NCBI GenBank assembly: GCA_945906725.1 | Contig: CAMDRI010000016.1 | Coordinates: 1-51,086, forward strand | Length of the DNA: 51,086 nt | Direction: 5' to 3' | Source: Candidatus Kuenenia stuttgartensis | GTDB taxonomy: Bacteria; Planctomycetota; Planctomycetia; Planctomycetales; Planctomycetaceae | Part shown: in pieces, positions 12,446 through 19,475 of the stretch | Numbering within the stretch: position 1 is the first letter of the stretch | Layout: every line of letters begins with the position of its first letter | The notes under the pieces: generated by a model | Database searches by the model: none | What the model was told of the DNA's origin: nothing | Seen by the model: the letters and a program-made list of their open reading frames with translations, nothing else | Program-made: the position numbers and the translations under genes

Positions 12446-12515
12446 CCCGACCCCTTGTGGGTCGGTCGTCCGCGGTTGTTTAGAGAATCATTCAGGCCAC
12501 AAGGGCCTGGGCTAC
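12442..12515. repeat. Palindromic element family B, copy 1
   Basis: A 74-bp element starting GTAGCCCGACC and ending GGGCCTGGGCTAC. The left hairpin pairs CCGACCC with GGGTCGG, the right pairs CAGGCC with GGCCTG. The copy at 31536 shares most of its bases. Both convergent flanking genes stop on the TAG of its ends (12443-12445 on plus, 12514-12512 on minus). It may also act as a shared bidirectional terminator. Confidence 0.8.
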
Positions 12516-13744
12516 AACGTGCGACCTTCCGCCGCGCTGTCGATTTTTTCGGGATCAATCGGCTTTACTGACCGTTTGCGGCCACGCCGTCCTTCAGGCT
12601 TGGTTGCGTCTTCTTGGAGTGGAACCAGCCCGGCATCAACTGGCTCGCCCAACAGCCAGCCGTTGAACACCGGAACTGGCGCATCAGCCAATCGCAGCCG
12701 TTCCGACCACTCCGCAGTCTCGCCCGCGAACGCAGTTTGCAACACTTCGCGAGCATCCTCCCGCTCGTCGGCTGGCAGCATCGTCCAAAATCGGCGAGCC
12801 GCGTCCGTCAACACGCTGCTGGACCGGTTGTGGCGCAAGCCGTCAATGACAAGCCGCCAAGCCACCAAGAATTCCCCGCTCCGCGCACGTTCTTCGGCGA
12901 GACTCAACCAAACATGCGGCAGTGCCGGATCGCGGCGCACGGCCTCGCGAAAGTGCGGCACACCTTCGGACAAATCCTCCGCGCGACGACCCAGTAAGGC
13001 GTGATAGTTCGCGTTCCAGAAGGGATGCAACAAGAGGTAAATCGCGGCCGGCAGCAACGCATGCGCGGCGATCCAAGCTCGCCGACCGGTGCGATGATGT
13101 GCCGCTCGCGCATTCAACCAGCCGTAGGCGACGCCCGTGAAGTGCGCCACGTTGGCAATGTGCAACACCTTAAACGCGGTCAGAATCAACATCGCGAAAA
13201 GAAAAATCCAAAAGCTGCGAATCGCTTGCTCTGGCAAACGTAGAGCGATCGCCGCATCAAACTGACGTTCGATCAAACACCAGCCGAACATCGCGCAGGC
13301 GACTCCCGACAGTCCCAGCGGCGTCGTGCCGAGAAAATACTCCGGCAAGAACGGCACGAGGGACGCGAAGAACCAGAACCCCAAATACGCTGCTCGCCGC
13401 ATGCGTCGTTCGAGCAGCGGCCCCAGAAACCACAGCGTGCTGACATTGCAGAATAAGTGCAGCAAGTTGGCGTGATGAAACGCGCTGGCCGGAATACGTA
13501 GCCAGCGCCACCACGGCCCATCCCACAAAGCGAACGGCCCCGAGACATCTTCGTCCCCTCCAAAATGCAGCATCACCACCATGCCAAGGACATGACTGAC
13601 CCCTTTCGGGTCATAATGGGCACTATTCTTGTCGTCGACGCTCGGACGGGCCAATTCGACGGCGATGAACAACGCGACCGATGCCGCCAGCAGACTGAAA
13701 GTCACGGGAGCGAATCGAAAATCACGGCGCAGCGCGGCAAACAT
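12512..13744 (-). CDS. Rhomboid-family intramembrane serine protease with C-terminal helical extension
   Basis: A 410-aa membrane protease. The rhomboid core spans about residues 15-225 with several hydrophobic helices. HHANLLHLFCNVSTLWFLGP is the conserved TM2 HxxxN-type region, GLSGVACAMFG carries the catalytic Ser (GxSG), and NVAHFTGVAYGW carries the catalytic His. Residues about 245-370 form a soluble helical region with TPR-like spacing (GVPHFREAVRRDPALPHVWL), and the tail is Lys/Arg rich. SD AGAAGGG lies upstream of ATG 13744. The TAG stop is supplied by element B1. The substrate is unknown. Confidence 0.82.
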   Translation of the reverse strand: MFAALRRDFRFAPVTFSLLAASVALFIAVELARPSVDDKNSAHYDPKGVSHVLGMVVMLHFGGDEDVSGPFALWDGPWWRWLRIPASAFHHANLLHLFCNVSTLWFLGPLLERRMRRAAYLGFWFFASLVPFLPEYFLGTTPLGLSGVACAMFGWCLIERQFDAAIALRLPEQAIRSFWIFLFAMLILTAFKVLHIANVAHFTGVAYGWLNARAAHHRTGRRAWIAAHALLPAAIYLLLHPFWNANYHALLGRRAEDLSEGVPHFREAVRRDPALPHVWLSLAEERARSGEFLVAWRLVIDGLRHNRSSSVLTDAARRFWTMLPADEREDAREVLQTAFAGETAEWSERLRLADAPVPVFNGWLLGEPVDAGLVPLQEDATKPEGRRGRKRSVKPIDPEKIDSAAEGRTL

Positions 13745-13835: not shown

Positions 13836-14933
13836 TCATTTCGCGGACGACTTTTGCTCGCGGAGGATCGTCAGATCGACCGCTTGGCCGGAATCGAGCA
13901 CGACCTTAGCCGCGACCTTCCGCAAAACCTCTTCCATCGTGTCAAGGTATTTACGTCGCATCGCGAGCTGCCGTGCTTCGGTATACGACCGGCGGCCGGA
14001 TTGCTCCTCAGATCGCAACTGTGCGATGAGTTTCGCAAAACTCTCTGCCTCGGCCTTCGCAGTTTCGACCGATTGCCGACGGAAGACTTCAGCCGAGTCC
14101 GTCGTGCGCCGGGCCACTCCGCGAGCTTCTGCCACGCGTTGTTCGGAGTACGCTCGCGCTTGATTGATCGCCGTTTCCTTGTCGGCACGAGCGTTCATGA
14201 CATCAATGAATTCCGCCTTCACCCTCAGCGGCGGCGAGACGTTCACAATCGTGACGTCATCGACCGTCAGTCCCAACCGCTGCTCGCGAGCCAGCCGTTG
14301 CAGATCCGCCGTCATTCGCTCGCGAAGTTCATTTCGGCCCAACGTGTGAGCAAAGTCGACGCCACTAAGCAGCATCGCATCCGCCAGAACCGATTCGGCA
14401 AGCGTTTGCAATCTTCGCTCCGGCGAAACCGCCGAGAACAAAAACTCGCCGACTGCCGACTCCGACACGCGGTAGCTCACGCTGATCTGCACGTTGAGGA
14501 TGTTCTTGTCGCCGCTCAAAAATTGAGCCTGTCGCGCTGGATCAACGTTGCGCAGAAAGCTGTTTGTGGCCGGAGCATCTTGTTCCAAGTCGCCGATCTT
14601 CAGCGTACGGATCTCATTCAGATTTATCCGATCGACGACCGCAAATGGCCACGGACAATCGTAATGCCAGCCGCTCGGCCATAACCACACCTCACCGTTC
14701 GCGTTCTTCACGGTGGCACCGAACCGCCGCACGATGGCAGCTTCGTTGCCACGAACCACAAAGAAACCGGTCAGAAGATAGAAACCAAGAATCAGTGCGG
14801 TGTGCAGCGTGCAAAGTGCAAAGTGAAAATTGAGGCGACCAGCGCGACGGCGTTGGACTACCGCTCGCTGCCCTCTGTTTGCACTTTGCACTTTGCACTC
14901 TGCACTCTGCACGCGGCACTCTCCTTCGCTCAC
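13836..14933 (-). CDS. SPFH/Band 7 (HflK-like) membrane protein, third gene of the ATPase-SPFH operon
   Basis: 365 aa. One membrane anchor (LILGFYLLTGFFVVRGNEAA, about residues 46-65), then an SPFH domain (about 55-250; NVQISVSYRVSE, GLTVDDVTIVNVSPP) and a charged coiled-coil tail (NARADKETAINQARAYSEQR onward). SPFH proteins of this kind form oligomeric rings and, as HflK/HflC, modulate the FtsH protease; no ftsH is visible nearby. The start is GTG 14933, overlapping the TGA of the upstream gene (GTGA), so the two are translationally coupled. Residues about 5-45 are encoded by an inverted repeat and are probably not functional sequence, so a later start would leave the anchor intact. Confidence 0.78.
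   Translation of the reverse strand: MSEGECRVQSAECKVQSANRGQRAVVQRRRAGRLNFHFALCTLHTALILGFYLLTGFFVVRGNEAAIVRRFGATVKNANGEVWLWPSGWHYDCPWPFAVVDRINLNEIRTLKIGDLEQDAPATNSFLRNVDPARQAQFLSGDKNILNVQISVSYRVSESAVGEFLFSAVSPERRLQTLAESVLADAMLLSGVDFAHTLGRNELRERMTADLQRLAREQRLGLTVDDVTIVNVSPPLRVKAEFIDVMNARADKETAINQARAYSEQRVAEARGVARRTTDSAEVFRRQSVETAKAEAESFAKLIAQLRSEEQSGRRSYTEARQLAMRRKYLDTMEEVLRKVAAKVVLDSGQAVDLTILREQKSSAK
14802..14913. repeat. Inverted repeat with tandem GCAAAGT units inside an SPFH gene
   Basis: The left arm (GTGCAGCGTGCAAAGTGCAA, continuing to 14830) and right arm (TTTGCACTTTGCACTTTGCA, 14877-14913) are complementary and each contains short tandem units. In the encoded protein they give ECRVQSAECKVQSA on one arm and FALCTLHTAL on the other. 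It lies wholly in the N-terminal coding region upstream of the membrane anchor. Confidence 0.65.
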
Positions 14934-15994
14934 GGAGCCTTCGTCGGATTCGCCAGTGGCTTCGCGTCACCCGGCTTCACGTCGCCTGGCACCCCCTCCG
15001 AAAGCATCTTCAACAAACTCGACGAGGCCGACAGTACTAAAGTCGTCTTGTCGTTCAGGATCGTGCGGTACGCATCGAGCGTTCGCATCGTGCGATAGAA
15101 CTCCGGATCGGCGGCATGAGATTGATTGAGAATCGAAGTTGCTTCGGCTTCGGCCTCGCCACGAATACGTTCCGCATCGCCGTCCGCCTTCGCGAGCAAC
15201 TCCGCGTGTTGCCGGTCGGCATGACTGCGGATGACGGTGCTTGCGGCGAGTCCCGCGCTGCGGTAGCGGTCAGCGATCTTTTGGCGTTCACTTTTCATTC
15301 GTTCGAAGACCGCTTGCTGATTGCCGAGCGGAAAATTGATCCGCTTAATTCTCGCATCGACGATTTCGATTCCCAGTTCATTGAGCAGCGATTCACCGTC
15401 GGCGCGGCCTTGCTGCAGTTGCGTTCGAATCTCTCGCGAGAGGACTTCCAGCACTCCGGCTTGATTGTCTGCCGGCCCGGCCTCGGAATCACCGACTCGC
15501 AGCAGGCTGCTGAGTTCAAGCTGTCCCACTCGCGTGGCCACGATCGAACGTAGCTTGTTGGCGAGCCGGTCGGCCGCAACGTCGTGGCTTCCCAGCGCCT
15601 TGAAGAACGTGACGACCGAGTGCTTCTTATCGGCCTGCCCGATCCGCCAGCAGACGAACGTCTCGACCGTGATATTCTTCTTGTCGCGAGTGAAGATCTC
15701 GCGGCCCGGTGGATCCAATAATTGCACGCGCGCGTCAAATCGCCGCGCCGTTCCAATCGGCCACGGCCATTTGAAGTGCAGCCCGCGATCCTGAGGCCGG
15801 TCGTAAACCGCCGCGGTGTTGCCTAACCAATGGACGATGACAAGTTCAGTCTCGTCAACCAGCACGACGGAACTGACTGCGGCGGAAACGAACACGACAA
15901 ACAGCACAATCACGGCGATGTTGCGTCGCCAGTGCGTTGACTGCGATTGGTCATTGATTATTGGTCGTTGGTCATTTGTCATTGCTTGATTCAC
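14930..15994 (-). CDS. SPFH/Band 7 (HflC-like) membrane protein
   Basis: 354 aa. A single anchor at about residues 25-50 (IAVIVLFVVFVSAAVSSVVL) leads into an SPFH domain (ELVIVHWLGNTAAVYDRP, HFKWPWPIGTARRFDARVQL, NITVETFVCWRIGQ) and a long C-terminal coiled-coil (ADRYRSAGLAAS, HAELLAKADGDAERIRGEAE, AEATSIL), the usual HflC layout. The start is GTG 15994 or ATG 15982. The first residues (MTNDQRPIINDQ) come from a low-complexity repeat, so the functional protein begins near STHWRRN. It begins 4 bases after the stop of the ATPase-HflK gene and overlaps the next SPFH gene by 4 bases: one operon. Confidence 0.82.
   Translation of the reverse strand: MNQAMTNDQRPIINDQSQSTHWRRNIAVIVLFVVFVSAAVSSVVLVDETELVIVHWLGNTAAVYDRPQDRGLHFKWPWPIGTARRFDARVQLLDPPGREIFTRDKKNITVETFVCWRIGQADKKHSVVTFFKALGSHDVAADRLANKLRSIVATRVGQLELSSLLRVGDSEAGPADNQAGVLEVLSREIRTQLQQGRADGESLLNELGIEIVDARIKRINFPLGNQQAVFERMKSERQKIADRYRSAGLAASTVIRSHADRQHAELLAKADGDAERIRGEAEAEATSILNQSHAADPEFYRTMRTLDAYRTILNDKTTLVLSASSSLLKMLSEGVPGDVKPGDAKPLANPTKAP
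15949..15984. repeat. Short low-complexity repeat at the start of the HflC-like gene
   Basis: Repeats of an ATTGGTCGT/TTGGTCATT unit, encoding NDQRPIINDQ, occupy the first codons of the gene and are followed directly by the real N-terminus before the membrane anchor. It resembles the other repeat-derived N-termini in this operon. Confidence 0.4.
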
Positions 15995-15998
15995 CTTG

Positions 15999-18900
15999 TC
16001 ACTTCTCCGTTTCCGGTATCTCTAACCGCTGCAACGGCGTGTCGGTTGATGGGAGCCGAATCGGCGTTTGCCCTGGTTCGGTCAGCCACAGATGCGATTT
16101 TCCGCGCAGAGCTGGGTCCAAAATCAGCAGCGGCCGAGCGGCCAAAACGCGCTCCATCGTCGTCCAGTACAAATGCAGTCCCGTCAGCGTCGGCTGTTCG
16201 GCAAAGACTTTCACGACGCTGTTGAACCGCGCGGCCGAACCGGCAGCCGCTTCGACTTTGCGAGTCTTCTCGCTGCGAGCCTTCAGCAACTTCGCCGCCG
16301 CTTCGCCGGAGAGGACTCGCTCGTCGGAGTCGAAATTCGCGGTCAGCTTTTGCCACAGCGCGTCGTCCAACTTCCAGCCGGTGACGCCGCCGGTGGTCGA
16401 GGCGTCGGGCAATCGCTTCGTGGCATCGACGCTGTCGGTCAGCACGCGGATCGCCTGCTCGCCGGCAGCGCTCAGCACCTTGCGGGCATAGTAGCCTTCA
16501 GCCTCGTTGATGAATTGCTCGCGCTGTTCCAGCGAGTCGGCCACCTGCCGATACGCCGGCACAACCTGCTGAGGCGGATGAATGTCGAGCAGGCTGAGAT
16601 CGAGCACTTCGACCCCGATGTCGTAGGACGTCATCAGCTCGCGAATGCGGACCAGACACCGGGCCTCGATCTCGCGTCGCCGGTTGGTCAGCAGCGCATC
16701 GAGTGACTCCGTCGCTGCAACTTCGCGAAGCACGCTTTCGGTGACGGCTCGCAACGTGTCGTCCGGTCGTGAGGCCGCGAACGCGAACCGCCGCAGATCA
16801 CCGATGCGAAATTGAACTTCGCCCGTCACCTCGATCGGCACTTCTTCGCCGGTCAGTGTGAACGATTCGGGGGCGACCGGTTCGTAGTCGGTGTCGGCAT
16901 GCTCGCTCATCCATTCGACCGGAGCGCGGAACAGCCCATCGCTCTTGAGCGGCGTCGGAGCGGATCGGAATCCGATTTGAACCGCGCGGACTTCGGCCAC
17001 TCGCTCGCGGCGGAGGCGTTCCAAGCCGCTCGGCCAACGCCAGTGCCAACCGGCCGAGAGAGTCGTCTCATAGCGGCCGAGTCGCGTAACCACGGCTTGC
17101 TCGTCTTCATTCAACAAAAGAATTCCCGAACAGCACCACCACACACCGAACACTGCGCCCGCCGTGCGCACGAGAGTCGGCCAGTGATCGAGAAACCCGA
17201 ATACGAGCTTCGTCGGCGACAGTTTTTCGACGACCCACTCGGCGACTCTGGCAGCGCCATTCGACAGCCGACCGAGACGTGTCTCGTGCCAGCGTTCAAA
17301 CCATAGCAACCGCATCGCGTTCAACATCACAGCCAGCGACGAGATTTCGTGAAACACCGCTGCGACCGCCGGATTGATCCAGCCCAGACTGCCGAGCACC
17401 ATCCCCACCGCGTTCATGCCGAACGCAAACACGAAGATGCTCTGCCGAATGACGATGACCAATTGACGAGACAACCGCAGCAACCCCGGCAGCGGCCGCA
17501 GCGGATCACCCATCAAAACCAGATCACCCGCCTCAGCCGCAAGGTCACTGCCGACACCGCCGAGCGCAAGTCCGACCGTCGCCGTTGCCAGCGCGGGAGC
17601 GTCGTTCACACCGTCGCCGACCATCGCTACTCGATGTCCGGCGGCAATCAACTCTTCGATGCGTTTCGCTTTGTCCGCCGGCAGCAACTCCGCCTGGACG
17701 TTGTTGATCCCGAGTTGCTCGGCGATGCGAACCGCGGTTTCGCGCCGGTCGCCTGTGAGCATCACAAACTGACTGATGCCAGCAGCTCGTAATTCGCGCA
17801 GGACAGCTTCCGTTTCCGATCGGACGACGTCGCGCAATCCGATTGCACCGAGCAGCGTTTGTTCAAGTGCGACCAGCAACACCGATTGGCCTTGTTGCTC
17901 CAACTCGACGACTCGCTGTTCGAGTTCAGGAGGAATGTTGATGCCTTGATTAGCCATCAGACGTCGATTGCCGACCGTGATCTGAGATTTGAAATTTGAG
18001 ATTTCAGATCTCATATTCGACCAAGTCCCAAGTTGCTCACCCCGCACAGTCGCGACAACACCCGCTCCGGGATGAGCCGTCAATTCGTCGGCCCCGGTGA
18101 ATACGCATTGCCTCGCCTCGGCTTCTCGGACGAGCACGCGAGCAATCGGATGCTCGCTGCGCTTCTCGGCAATCGCCGCGAGACGTAGCAGGTCGGTTTC
18201 GTCAACGTAGCCCTCTCGCTCTGCGAGAGGATTTTCCGATCGCGCGGTTGGCGTCGTTTGAGATTTGGAGTTTGTTCGTGCGCTCGGCATTTCCTCTCGT
18301 GGAACGAGAGGACTACTTTGAACGGCCGATGCTAACAGCACCTCCCCGACCACCAACTCGCCGCGAGTCAGTGTGCCGGTCTTGTCGAAGACAATCGTGT
18401 CGATCGACGCCAGGCGTTCGAGCGCGACCGAGCCTTTAACGACAACACCCGCTCGCGCGAGCCACGCCATCGCGGCCATCACTGCGCTTGGAGTCGCTAG
18501 AATCAACGGGCACGGGCAAGCGACGACCAACACGCTCAATGCTGGAAGAAAGCACTCTTTCGACCATGCTCCAAGAGCAATTCGCCAACCAATCAATGTC
18601 AAGAAAGCGACCGCCAACACCACCGGCAAAAACCAGCGAGCCAGCCGATCCGCAGTCCGTTCGAGTGACGCCTTTCGTAGCGTCGCTTGGCCGACCAACT
18701 CAACGATTTGTGCGAGAGTGGTTTGCTCACCGACTTGAGTCGCCGTGATCTGCAACGCTCCAAATTGATTCAGCGTCCCGGCGAAAACGTTGTCGCCGAT
18801 CGCTTTGTCCGCCGGCACGCTTTCGCCCGTCAGAGCACTTTGATCAACCGCCGATTGCCCGGCCGCAACGACGCCGTCCACCGGAATCCGTTCGCCGGGC

Positions 18901-19475
18901 CGAACGATGACCGTGTCGCCGACGATCACTTGTTCGAGCGGCACTTCCTGTTCGTCATCCCCAACGAGGACTCGCGCCGTGCGCGGACACAACTGGAAGA
19001 TGCGTCGGATCGCTCGCTGAGCACGATCGACGGTGTAACCTTCGATGCTCTCACCGCACACCGCGATGAACACGACCAGCGCGGCGGTCGTGTGTTCGCC
19101 AAGCACAATCGCCGCCAGGCAGGCGATCGTCAGCGCGAGGTCCGCGCCGACTCGGCCCGACAACAAACCGTCGAGCGTTTGGTATAGAATTCTTGCGCCA
19201 CCGAGCACCGCCGCCAGCAACGCCAATCGAAAGCCGAAGAGCGTTTGTGTCGCAAGCAGCTTCGACCACCAGTCGGCATTTGACGCGATGGTCGGCGAAG
19301 ATCCGGGCATGCCCCAGACGATCCCCAACGCGACATCCACCACCAGCAAGATTCCAACCACGGCCGTCAGCAAGTAAATCGGAGCCGAGCGATAATGAAA
19401 ACTCTCCTCGCGGCCGGCGCAGTTGGCACCGGCTTCGGGCAGGAATTCTCGCGGCGATTCAGGCGCGTAGTGCAT
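15999..19475 (-). CDS. P1B-type heavy-metal ATPase fused to an HflK-like SPFH domain
   Basis: One 1158-aa frame holds two proteins. Residues 1-735 are a P1B ATPase: hydrophobic helices at about 32-52, 78-98 and 112-140, TGES at 216-219, the metal-site CPCP at 320-323, DKTGT with the phosphorylated Asp364, SEHP at 440-443, GDGVND at 620-625, and last helices at 675-725. No N-terminal CxxC metal-binding domain is present. The last helix has HEISSLAVMLNA, which does not settle Cu versus Zn/Co specificity. Residues about 770-1158 are HflK-like: anchor AVFGVWWCCSGILLL, then DEQAVVTRLGRYETTLSAGW and the SPFH core to about 985 (VEVLDLSLLDIHPPQQVVPA), then a helical tail. Repeat-derived inserts interrupt the ATPase at about 387-423 and 488-499. 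Two SPFH genes follow within 4 bases. An ATPase physically tied to a membrane scaffold is inferred. Confidence 0.85.
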   Translation of the reverse strand: MHYAPESPREFLPEAGANCAGREESFHYRSAPIYLLTAVVGILLVVDVALGIVWGMPGSSPTIASNADWWSKLLATQTLFGFRLALLAAVLGGARILYQTLDGLLSGRVGADLALTIACLAAIVLGEHTTAALVVFIAVCGESIEGYTVDRAQRAIRRIFQLCPRTARVLVGDDEQEVPLEQVIVGDTVIVRPGERIPVDGVVAAGQSAVDQSALTGESVPADKAIGDNVFAGTLNQFGALQITATQVGEQTTLAQIVELVGQATLRKASLERTADRLARWFLPVVLAVAFLTLIGWRIALGAWSKECFLPALSVLVVACPCPLILATPSAVMAAMAWLARAGVVVKGSVALERLASIDTIVFDKTGTLTRGELVVGEVLLASAVQSSPLVPREEMPSARTNSKSQTTPTARSENPLAEREGYVDETDLLRLAAIAEKRSEHPIARVLVREAEARQCVFTGADELTAHPGAGVVATVRGEQLGTWSNMRSEISNFKSQITVGNRRLMANQGINIPPELEQRVVELEQQGQSVLLVALEQTLLGAIGLRDVVRSETEAVLRELRAAGISQFVMLTGDRRETAVRIAEQLGINNVQAELLPADKAKRIEELIAAGHRVAMVGDGVNDAPALATATVGLALGGVGSDLAAEAGDLVLMGDPLRPLPGLLRLSRQLVIVIRQSIFVFAFGMNAVGMVLGSLGWINPAVAAVFHEISSLAVMLNAMRLLWFERWHETRLGRLSNGAARVAEWVVEKLSPTKLVFGFLDHWPTLVRTAGAVFGVWWCCSGILLLNEDEQAVVTRLGRYETTLSAGWHWRWPSGLERLRRERVAEVRAVQIGFRSAPTPLKSDGLFRAPVEWMSEHADTDYEPVAPESFTLTGEEVPIEVTGEVQFRIGDLRRFAFAASRPDDTLRAVTESVLREVAATESLDALLTNRRREIEARCLVRIRELMTSYDIGVEVLDLSLLDIHPPQQVVPAYRQVADSLEQREQFINEAEGYYARKVLSAAGEQAIRVLTDSVDATKRLPDASTTGGVTGWKLDDALWQKLTANFDSDERVLSGEAAAKLLKARSEKTRKVEAAAGSAARFNSVVKVFAEQPTLTGLHLYWTTMERVLAARPLLILDPALRGKSHLWLTEPGQTPIRLPSTDTPLQRLEIPETEK
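17981..18014. repeat. AT-rich palindrome inside the ATPase-HflK gene
   Basis: A 34-bp stretch starting TCTGAGATTTGAAATTTGAG and ending with its near complement. It encodes MRSEISNFKSQI, placed directly before the conserved nucleotide-binding-domain segment VGNRRLM, where P1B ATPases have no such insert. A related AT-rich motif occurs at 27874-27900 inside the AtuA-family gene (EIANCKFEN). Confidence 0.55.
18207..18316. repeat. GTAG-bounded double-hairpin element in frame inside the ATPase
   Basis: A 110-bp element starting GTAGCCCTCTCGCTCTGCGA and ending CGAGAGGACTAC. The left hairpin pairs CCTCTCG with CGAGAGG (loop CTCTG or similar), the right pairs TCCTCTCGT with ACGAGAGGA. It encodes about 37 residues (from SSPLVPREEM to PLAEREGY) between LLASAVQ and VDETDLLRLAA in the ATPase nucleotide-binding domain. 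The frame stays open through it. Confidence 0.75.

Follow-up and report, generated by a model that had tools for sequence, protein, structure and literature searches.

Why would a metal pump be built as one polypeptide with a membrane-scaffold protein? The question is raised by a gene in a 51,086-nucleotide stretch of DNA from Candidatus Kuenenia stuttgartensis (assembly GCA_945906725.1, contig CAMDRI010000016.1, positions 1 to 51,086; hereafter the window). There, a P1B-type ATPase, a linker that includes a ninth membrane helix (TM9), and an HflK-like SPFH domain (SPFH1) are encoded by a single gene on the minus strand (15999..19475, 1158 aa; delimited by its open reading frame [ORF], Pfam, NCBIfam, and AlphaFold2). 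On balance, we favor the answer that the gene encodes a metal-transporting P1B pump together with the first subunit of an SPFH1-HflC-HflK2 assembly that holds, protects, or encloses the pump. Pump and scaffold probably work together, and this joint function is well evidenced because the two are fused in one lineage and are gene neighbors in others. An SPFH trio with a pump is a more widespread arrangement, of which the fusion is one form, resembling the hmtA locus of Pseudomonas aeruginosa, a connection missed by a preliminary description of the window.

The frame is unbroken from 19475 to 15999 and contains TGES, CPCP, DKTGT, SEHP, and GDGVND. The preliminary description had read it as one polypeptide bearing all these ATPase motifs and an SPFH domain, and both the ORF and Pfam agree (E1-E2_ATPase, 184 bits, residues 162–341; Hydrolase, 112 bits, 358–632; Band_7, 77 bits, 789–994). 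The ORF opens with ATG and an MHYAPES N-terminus, and this start seems sound because a similar MHY.PES start recurs among many relatives. The ATPase half (residues 1–740; 17256..19475, minus strand, as are all features of the operon given here; Pfam, NCBIfam, and AlphaFold2) has eight membrane helices. It was said to lack an N-terminal CxxC metal-binding domain, and indeed the HMA family has no Pfam match in the fused protein. With 568.8 bits for TIGR01525 in NCBIfam (cut-off 346), the protein belongs to the P1B type. Within the pump, the M6 metal motif CPCP occupies residues 320–323 (18507..18518; from the alignment of fused proteins), its CPC being invariant across 22 aligned fused proteins and its fourth position being P, A, or G; the phosphorylation motif DKTGT follows at residues 364–368 (18372..18386; ORF and alignment). 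The junction, i.e., linker and TM9, covers residues 726–784 (17124..17300; alignment and AlphaFold2), and the SPFH (Band 7) domain with its helical tail covers residues 785–1158 plus the stop codon (15999..17123; Pfam, NCBIfam, and AlphaFold2). The latter makes the fused protein score 152.1 bits for the HflK family TIGR01933, slightly below the NCBIfam cut-off of 159.4. The pump frame also contains a 120-bp insert (residues 385–424; 18204..18323; alignment, AlphaFold2, and repeat search), which is modeled with low confidence and is missing from the nine other fused proteins displayed in the alignment. It holds short dispersed repeats, and pieces of the insert (query 18200–18330) match 19 other sites in the genome; it has the look of small, dispersed repeats that a loop tolerates, outside the conserved pump.

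The same order of domains, P1B ATPase and then Band 7 in one ORF, was sought in other genomes, as the preliminary description had proposed, and was found in 122 of 297 genomes of the class, sometimes on single contigs (single-contig genomes with it are G012, G472, and G498). This survey used a profile made from 22 fusions at E <= 1e-250, with genomes drawn at >= 90 per cent completeness. It gave 127 matches, 126 of them listed as free of internal stops, in five families (f1, f2, f3, f6, and f81), so that the fusion is far beyond chance. In a phylum-wide draw of 292 genomes, it occurs in four, every one within the class, and the 31 fusion loci from named genomes are all planctomycete. Among the 5000 plasmid records listed, none covers 80 per cent of the fused protein (P0001). 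Within the genus, four of 11 other genomes searched give a full-length, single-piece match; elsewhere the match comes in pieces, because of the insert at residues 385–424, of contig ends (G009 and G011), or, in G001, of a frameshift close to residue 190, which does not affect the junction between pump and SPFH domain. The fusion occurs twice in each of five genomes (G368, G374, G376, G396, and G408), which all belong to family f2. A P1B–SPFH fusion is mentioned in none of the titles and abstract openings of the literature searched, a search that mostly did not extend to subscription papers.

HflC- and HflK-like genes had been noted directly behind the fusion, and NCBIfam and the gene spacing confirm them. 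The second gene of the trio encodes an HflC-like SPFH protein of 354 aa (14930..15994) and the third an HflK-like SPFH protein of 365 aa, HflK2 (13836..14933; both from Pfam, NCBIfam, and locus comparison), with a 4-bp gap between fusion and HflC-like gene and a 4-bp overlap between HflC-like gene and HflK2. The HflC-like protein reaches 172.7 bits for TIGR01932, above the cut-off of 134.4, whereas HflK2 has 135.3 bits for TIGR01933, below the cut-off of 159.4. The HflK2-like start (14802–14933) and the HflC-like start (15930–15994) consist of short, degenerate repeats (TTTGCAC-type and TTGGTCA-type), and the true start codons of these two genes are therefore unsure. Both partners follow the fusion in 23 of 31 loci. 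In six of the other eight, the contig ends inside the fusion or <=0.1 kb behind it; neither HflC nor HflK2 was found in the 4.3 kb behind the fusion of L055 or in the 3.4 kb behind that of L058. At 20 further fusion loci (19 genomes), the partners come after the fusion in 13 and before it in one (G472), and the fusion is alone in six. All six genomes with a lone fusion have HflK2 elsewhere, with HflC adjoining it in four. A rhomboid-family gene with a C-terminal extension (12512–13744) lies directly behind the trio in the window. By tblastn, RuvX, the rhomboid, and the other window neighbors tested were seen beside the operon only within the genus.

A similar trio adjoins a separate P1B gene in genomes without the fusion, and together with the conserved fusion this upholds the idea that the pump and the SPFH proteins belong together. 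In the fusion-free genomes G100 and G039, the trio stands between a PF03773-type permease in front and a separate P1B gene behind. Searching with these two pumps finds nine of 392 genomes of the phylum at E <= 1e-180 (G100, the source of one query, included), and the trio lies directly before the pump in all nine. In G275, too, a separate P1B gene comes after the trio. Twenty further P1B genes, taken from the matches in the phylum-wide draw, mostly by a length of 650–700 aa and some from one genus, include 12 that lie behind a trio and one (L211) with the trio on the other side; six other P1B genes have no SPFH neighbor within stretches of 6 to 16 kb. On plasmids, tblastn with SPFH1 matches records of Burkholderia ubonensis and Paraburkholderia sprentiae, where the annotated order is HflK, HflC, SPFH, and cation-translocating P-type ATPase. 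Follow-up searches give 10 records, with the pump behind the trio in all six fetched (hosts include Burkholderia, Rhizobium, and Klebsiella). The P. sprentiae unit is a few genes downstream of genes for a zinc ABC transporter and the PCu(A)C copper chaperone; the three other annotated plasmid loci have no such surroundings. By gene content (SPFH1, HflC, and HflK2 with a P1B pump), the fusion operon, like these loci, is a trio of the hmtA type.

In place of the pump, the unfused SPFH1 (L152:5263-7125; L201:3055-5118; L214:7239-9134) has a membrane module, about 300 aa long, at its N-terminus. In 11 such proteins, the SPFH anchor is preceded by 3 to 6 hydrophobic segments, by a threshold that undercounts the pump too. 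The module has no Pfam match in L152 and L153, and hhalign, with a probability of 0.6 per cent, likewise lends no support to the notion that it is a decayed pump. In six of 10 loci, the unfused trio is preceded by a PF03773 (ArsP_1)-type permease, recognized by Pfam (e.g., L152:3719-5266; L153:3422-4963), with two copies in L175. In the separate trio pumps of L152, L153, and L175–L178, CPGP or CPVG replaces the CPC of M6, with the loss of one cysteine, and in L176–L178 the same motif scan also misses S.HP.

In P. aeruginosa, hmtA (PA2435) lies with PA2437–PA2439, annotated as HflC/HflK family (PMC4542158), and the order of trio and then pump fits, by analogy, that of PA2439–PA2435. Under zinc depletion, PA2437–PA2439 and hmtA are reported to be upregulated 5.6–14.4 fold (PMC4542158, Table 2); the proteins of the locus are also reported to rise, some not significantly (PMC11761036), and Zur with zinc to bind the PA2439 promoter (PMC8531726). 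HmtA is described as a copper and zinc importer in a review that adds that the claim needs confirmation (PMC8456098). The arrangement is thus not categorically new: its unfused counterpart is already in print, where, in the accessible text of these sources, the SPFH part is merely an annotation or a set of presumed FtsH modulators.

The trees link the two versions through SPFH1. The fused and separate SPFH1 group together with supports of 92 and, with plasmid sequences added, 89, neither of which exceeds 95. These, like the pump trees below, are quick trees with Shimodaira–Hasegawa-like approximate likelihood ratio support only, and their groups were partly named after the trees had been seen. 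SPFH trees were made without sequences <220 aa and without loci dropped for balance, and P1B trees without sequences <450 aa; in the SPFH tree without plasmids, the row L180_b_SPFH1 is an HflC mislabeled by a length rule, whereas the tree with plasmids is labeled by gene order. SPFH1 and HflK2 stand apart from the canonical planctomycete HflK (L160–L162; 95 and 92) and, less firmly, from Escherichia coli HflK (82 and 69). Hence, neither is a canonical HflK by the TIGR01933 cut-off or by tree grouping, while the HflC-like protein passes the TIGR01932 cut-off and varies in its placement.

The AlphaFold2 model of the fused protein is of moderate quality (predicted local distance difference test score 74.3, predicted template modeling score 0.58). 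Its pump helices run up to residue 725, followed by linker helices (733–763), TM9 (765–782), SPFH strands from 785, and a broken helical tail (969–1112). Together with the alignment, it places eight helices in the pump and a linker some 40 residues long between these and TM9. Linker and TM9 are present in all 10 fused proteins displayed, the linker being variable in sequence; its charges (six K+R and five D+E) are neutral as to topology. P1B pumps rank first when Foldseek is run with the fused model (7r0g), the best PDB matches of the pump being 7qbz, 3j08, and 7r0g, and a sequence search of the PDB matches the SPFH half with HflK of 7vhp. No match spans both halves among the best 60 of 128. 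With its eight helices, a standard P1B pump has its C-terminus in the cytosol. Because TM9 then crosses the membrane once more, the SPFH half would be in the periplasm, as in HflK; the SPFH domains of HflK/C are reported on that side (PMC2636767).

On this topology, which we infer from the model and the P1B fold, the C-terminus of the pump would continue through the linker and the extra helix into SPFH1, the putative first subunit of a three-protein assembly. SPFH1, HflC, and HflK2 would build an HflKC-like ring or dome of the inner membrane in which the pumps have fixed positions. The job is probably the transport of an essential metal, zinc or copper being the most likely, and the assembly could hold the pump, shield it from proteolysis, or enclose its periplasmic mouth.

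How the pumps are related bears on this reading. The fused pumps form one clade (100), and the separate trio pumps and plasmid pumps form another (100), inside which fall two trio-less genes (L198 and L208). In a KdpB-rooted tree, the two clades are apart (forks of 91 and 81), yet joining them is not rejected by the approximately unbiased (AU) test with a KdpB outgroup (p 0.24), and the unrooted tree does join them, with a support of 35. A clade of the fused pumps and the CopA group is not rejected by the AU test either (p 0.52–0.75), nor is it demonstrated. Earlier AU rejections in favor of two pump lineages (p 0.0008, 0.00009, and 0.0002) are withdrawn as confounded: they counted the trio-linked L098, or the trio-less L198 and L208 that lie inside the separate-pump clade, as outside the group. 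Judged from these sequences, one recruitment of the pump or two would both be compatible with the trees. M8 of the fusion reads FHEISSLAVMLNAMRLL, which does not have the CopA/ZntA-type signature; across fused pumps, M8 follows H[EQ]xxSxxVxxNxxRLL, M7 has N, and M6 has CPC.

Several results weigh against the reading favored here. Since fused and separate pumps may or may not be sisters, the metal and direction of HmtA are not simply transferable to the fusion. Copper pumps are named P1B-1 and zinc/cadmium pumps P1B-2, and the M7/M8 residues of the fusion match neither E. coli CopA (M8 AMALSS) nor ZntA (M8 ADTGA). The HflK2 of the two versions group weakly (38 and 45), and the HflC of the fused version goes with the separate-type HflC (75) in one tree and with canonical HflC (81) in the other; because of this, the trees do not establish that all three genes of the trio descended together. 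No trio lies in the stretch fetched around seven of the 20 further P1B genes, two of these (L198 and L208) sit within the trio-pump clade, and some fusion genes lie away from HflC and HflK2. Among the 25 commonest of the 154 families matched by neighbors of the fusion (93 of 153 frames, around 25 of 28 loci), none handles metals. Finally, no Zur-like box is found near the operon; the window has a single relaxed match, far from it and at chance level, to a box known from other bacteria.

The best-surviving alternative, possible and clearly less probable than the favored reading, is that the SPFH half is simply an anchor of the flotillin type, by which the pump is sorted to a lipid microdomain or a part of the planctomycete membrane, without a closed dome or special chemistry. 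SPFH proteins do scaffold microdomains (PMC2636767), and the fusion can lie apart from its partners in the genome. Yet there are three distinct SPFH paralogs of the HflK/HflC kind, kept in one order, which points to a built complex. Proteins of this kind form mixed periplasmic assemblies.

A rather doubtful alternative is that the trio is the HflKC of these cells, serving FtsH, a zinc protease, and that the pump half senses metal status or couples it to membrane proteolysis. Such a link had been suggested in the preliminary description, along with the absence of FtsH nearby. None of the six FtsH-family matches of the genome is on the window contig, as stated, but this says little, as two full-length FtsH genes lie elsewhere (on C87 and C137), and these speak for the alternative. 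So does the fact that the trio holds the only full-length HflK/C-like genes found in the genome, a fourth Band_7 match being partial. An HflK above the cut-off outside the trio occurs in three of 28 genomes (G018, G284, and G041; L160–L162), so that few genomes of this sample have both the trio and canonical HflKC, and only G041 among 12 fusion genomes checked has a canonical HflK/HflC pair besides. The grouping of the fused-version HflC with canonical HflC in one tree (81) agrees with this, and the P. aeruginosa trio has been interpreted as FtsH modulators (PMC9431628). Against it, the trees separate SPFH1 and HflK2 from canonical planctomycete HflK and, less firmly, from that of E. coli, with the supports given above; both score below the TIGR01933 cut-off; and similar trios have P1B pumps beside them in several phyla. 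The proteolysis link thus finds no support in the grouping of SPFH1 and HflK2, and canonical FtsH modulators are not favored on the TIGR01933 scores, the HflK survey, and both SPFH trees.

It is unlikely that the trio forms a periplasmic dome into which the pumps open, a closed vestibule for metal that changes the abilities of a P1B pump (e.g., allowing net uptake, as reported for HmtA), with the pump hard-wired by fusion in Planctomycetia in replacement of the helix module. Still less probable is that the polypeptide, once made, is cleaved so that pump and SPFH1 become separate proteins, and that the fusion merely fixes a 1:1 ratio: the variable linker and the rhomboid gene downstream in this genus would suit such a cut, but the linker and TM9 persist in all the fused proteins displayed and tblastn did not find the rhomboid with the operon in other genera. 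An assembly error, a stop loss, or a pseudogene in one genome is almost certainly wrong, since the fusion recurs in 122 of the 297 genomes of the class, over five families and on several single contigs, even though the window comes from a metagenome-assembled genome of 268 contigs and the ATPase half is split by frameshifts in G001 (L046) and L062.

The reading of a pump held by an SPFH assembly suggests that some genes annotated as "protease modulator HflK/HflC" may be pump partners. Most P1B pumps, unlike HmtA as reported, do not import metal. The import by HmtA is reported without explanation, and in the accessible text its HflK/HflC-like neighbors are not described as parts of a pump complex. 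The fusion, and the trio beside separate pumps in several phyla, raise the question of whether the pump depends on the SPFH ring and whether the ring governs its direction or choice of metal.

Among known systems, CopA, ZntA, and 7qbz share with the fusion TGES, CPx, DKTGT, SEHP, GDGxND, and eight helices; the fusion differs in lacking a metal-binding N-domain, in its own M8 motif, and in the C-terminal SPFH protein. The FtsH-associated HflK/HflC of E. coli has the SPFH domain, one preceding membrane helix, and an HflC-like partner in common with it, whereas the window system has three members rather than two, an attached pump, and HflK-like proteins below the TIGR01933 cut-off. The separate-gene trios (L152, L201, and L214–L219) have the same SPFH1-HflC-HflK2 set, with an SPFH1 that groups with the fused one (92 and 89), and are distinguished by the helix module at the N-terminus of SPFH1 and by a pump that is the separate last gene and of its own clade. 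The hmtA locus is similar in that three HflK/HflC-like genes, PA2439 (HflK family) first, then PA2438 (HflC) and PA2437 (HflC family), are encoded with a P1B-type pump, PA2435 or HmtA (PMC4542158, PMC8531726); there the pump is a separate gene, and the likeness is one of gene order and annotation.

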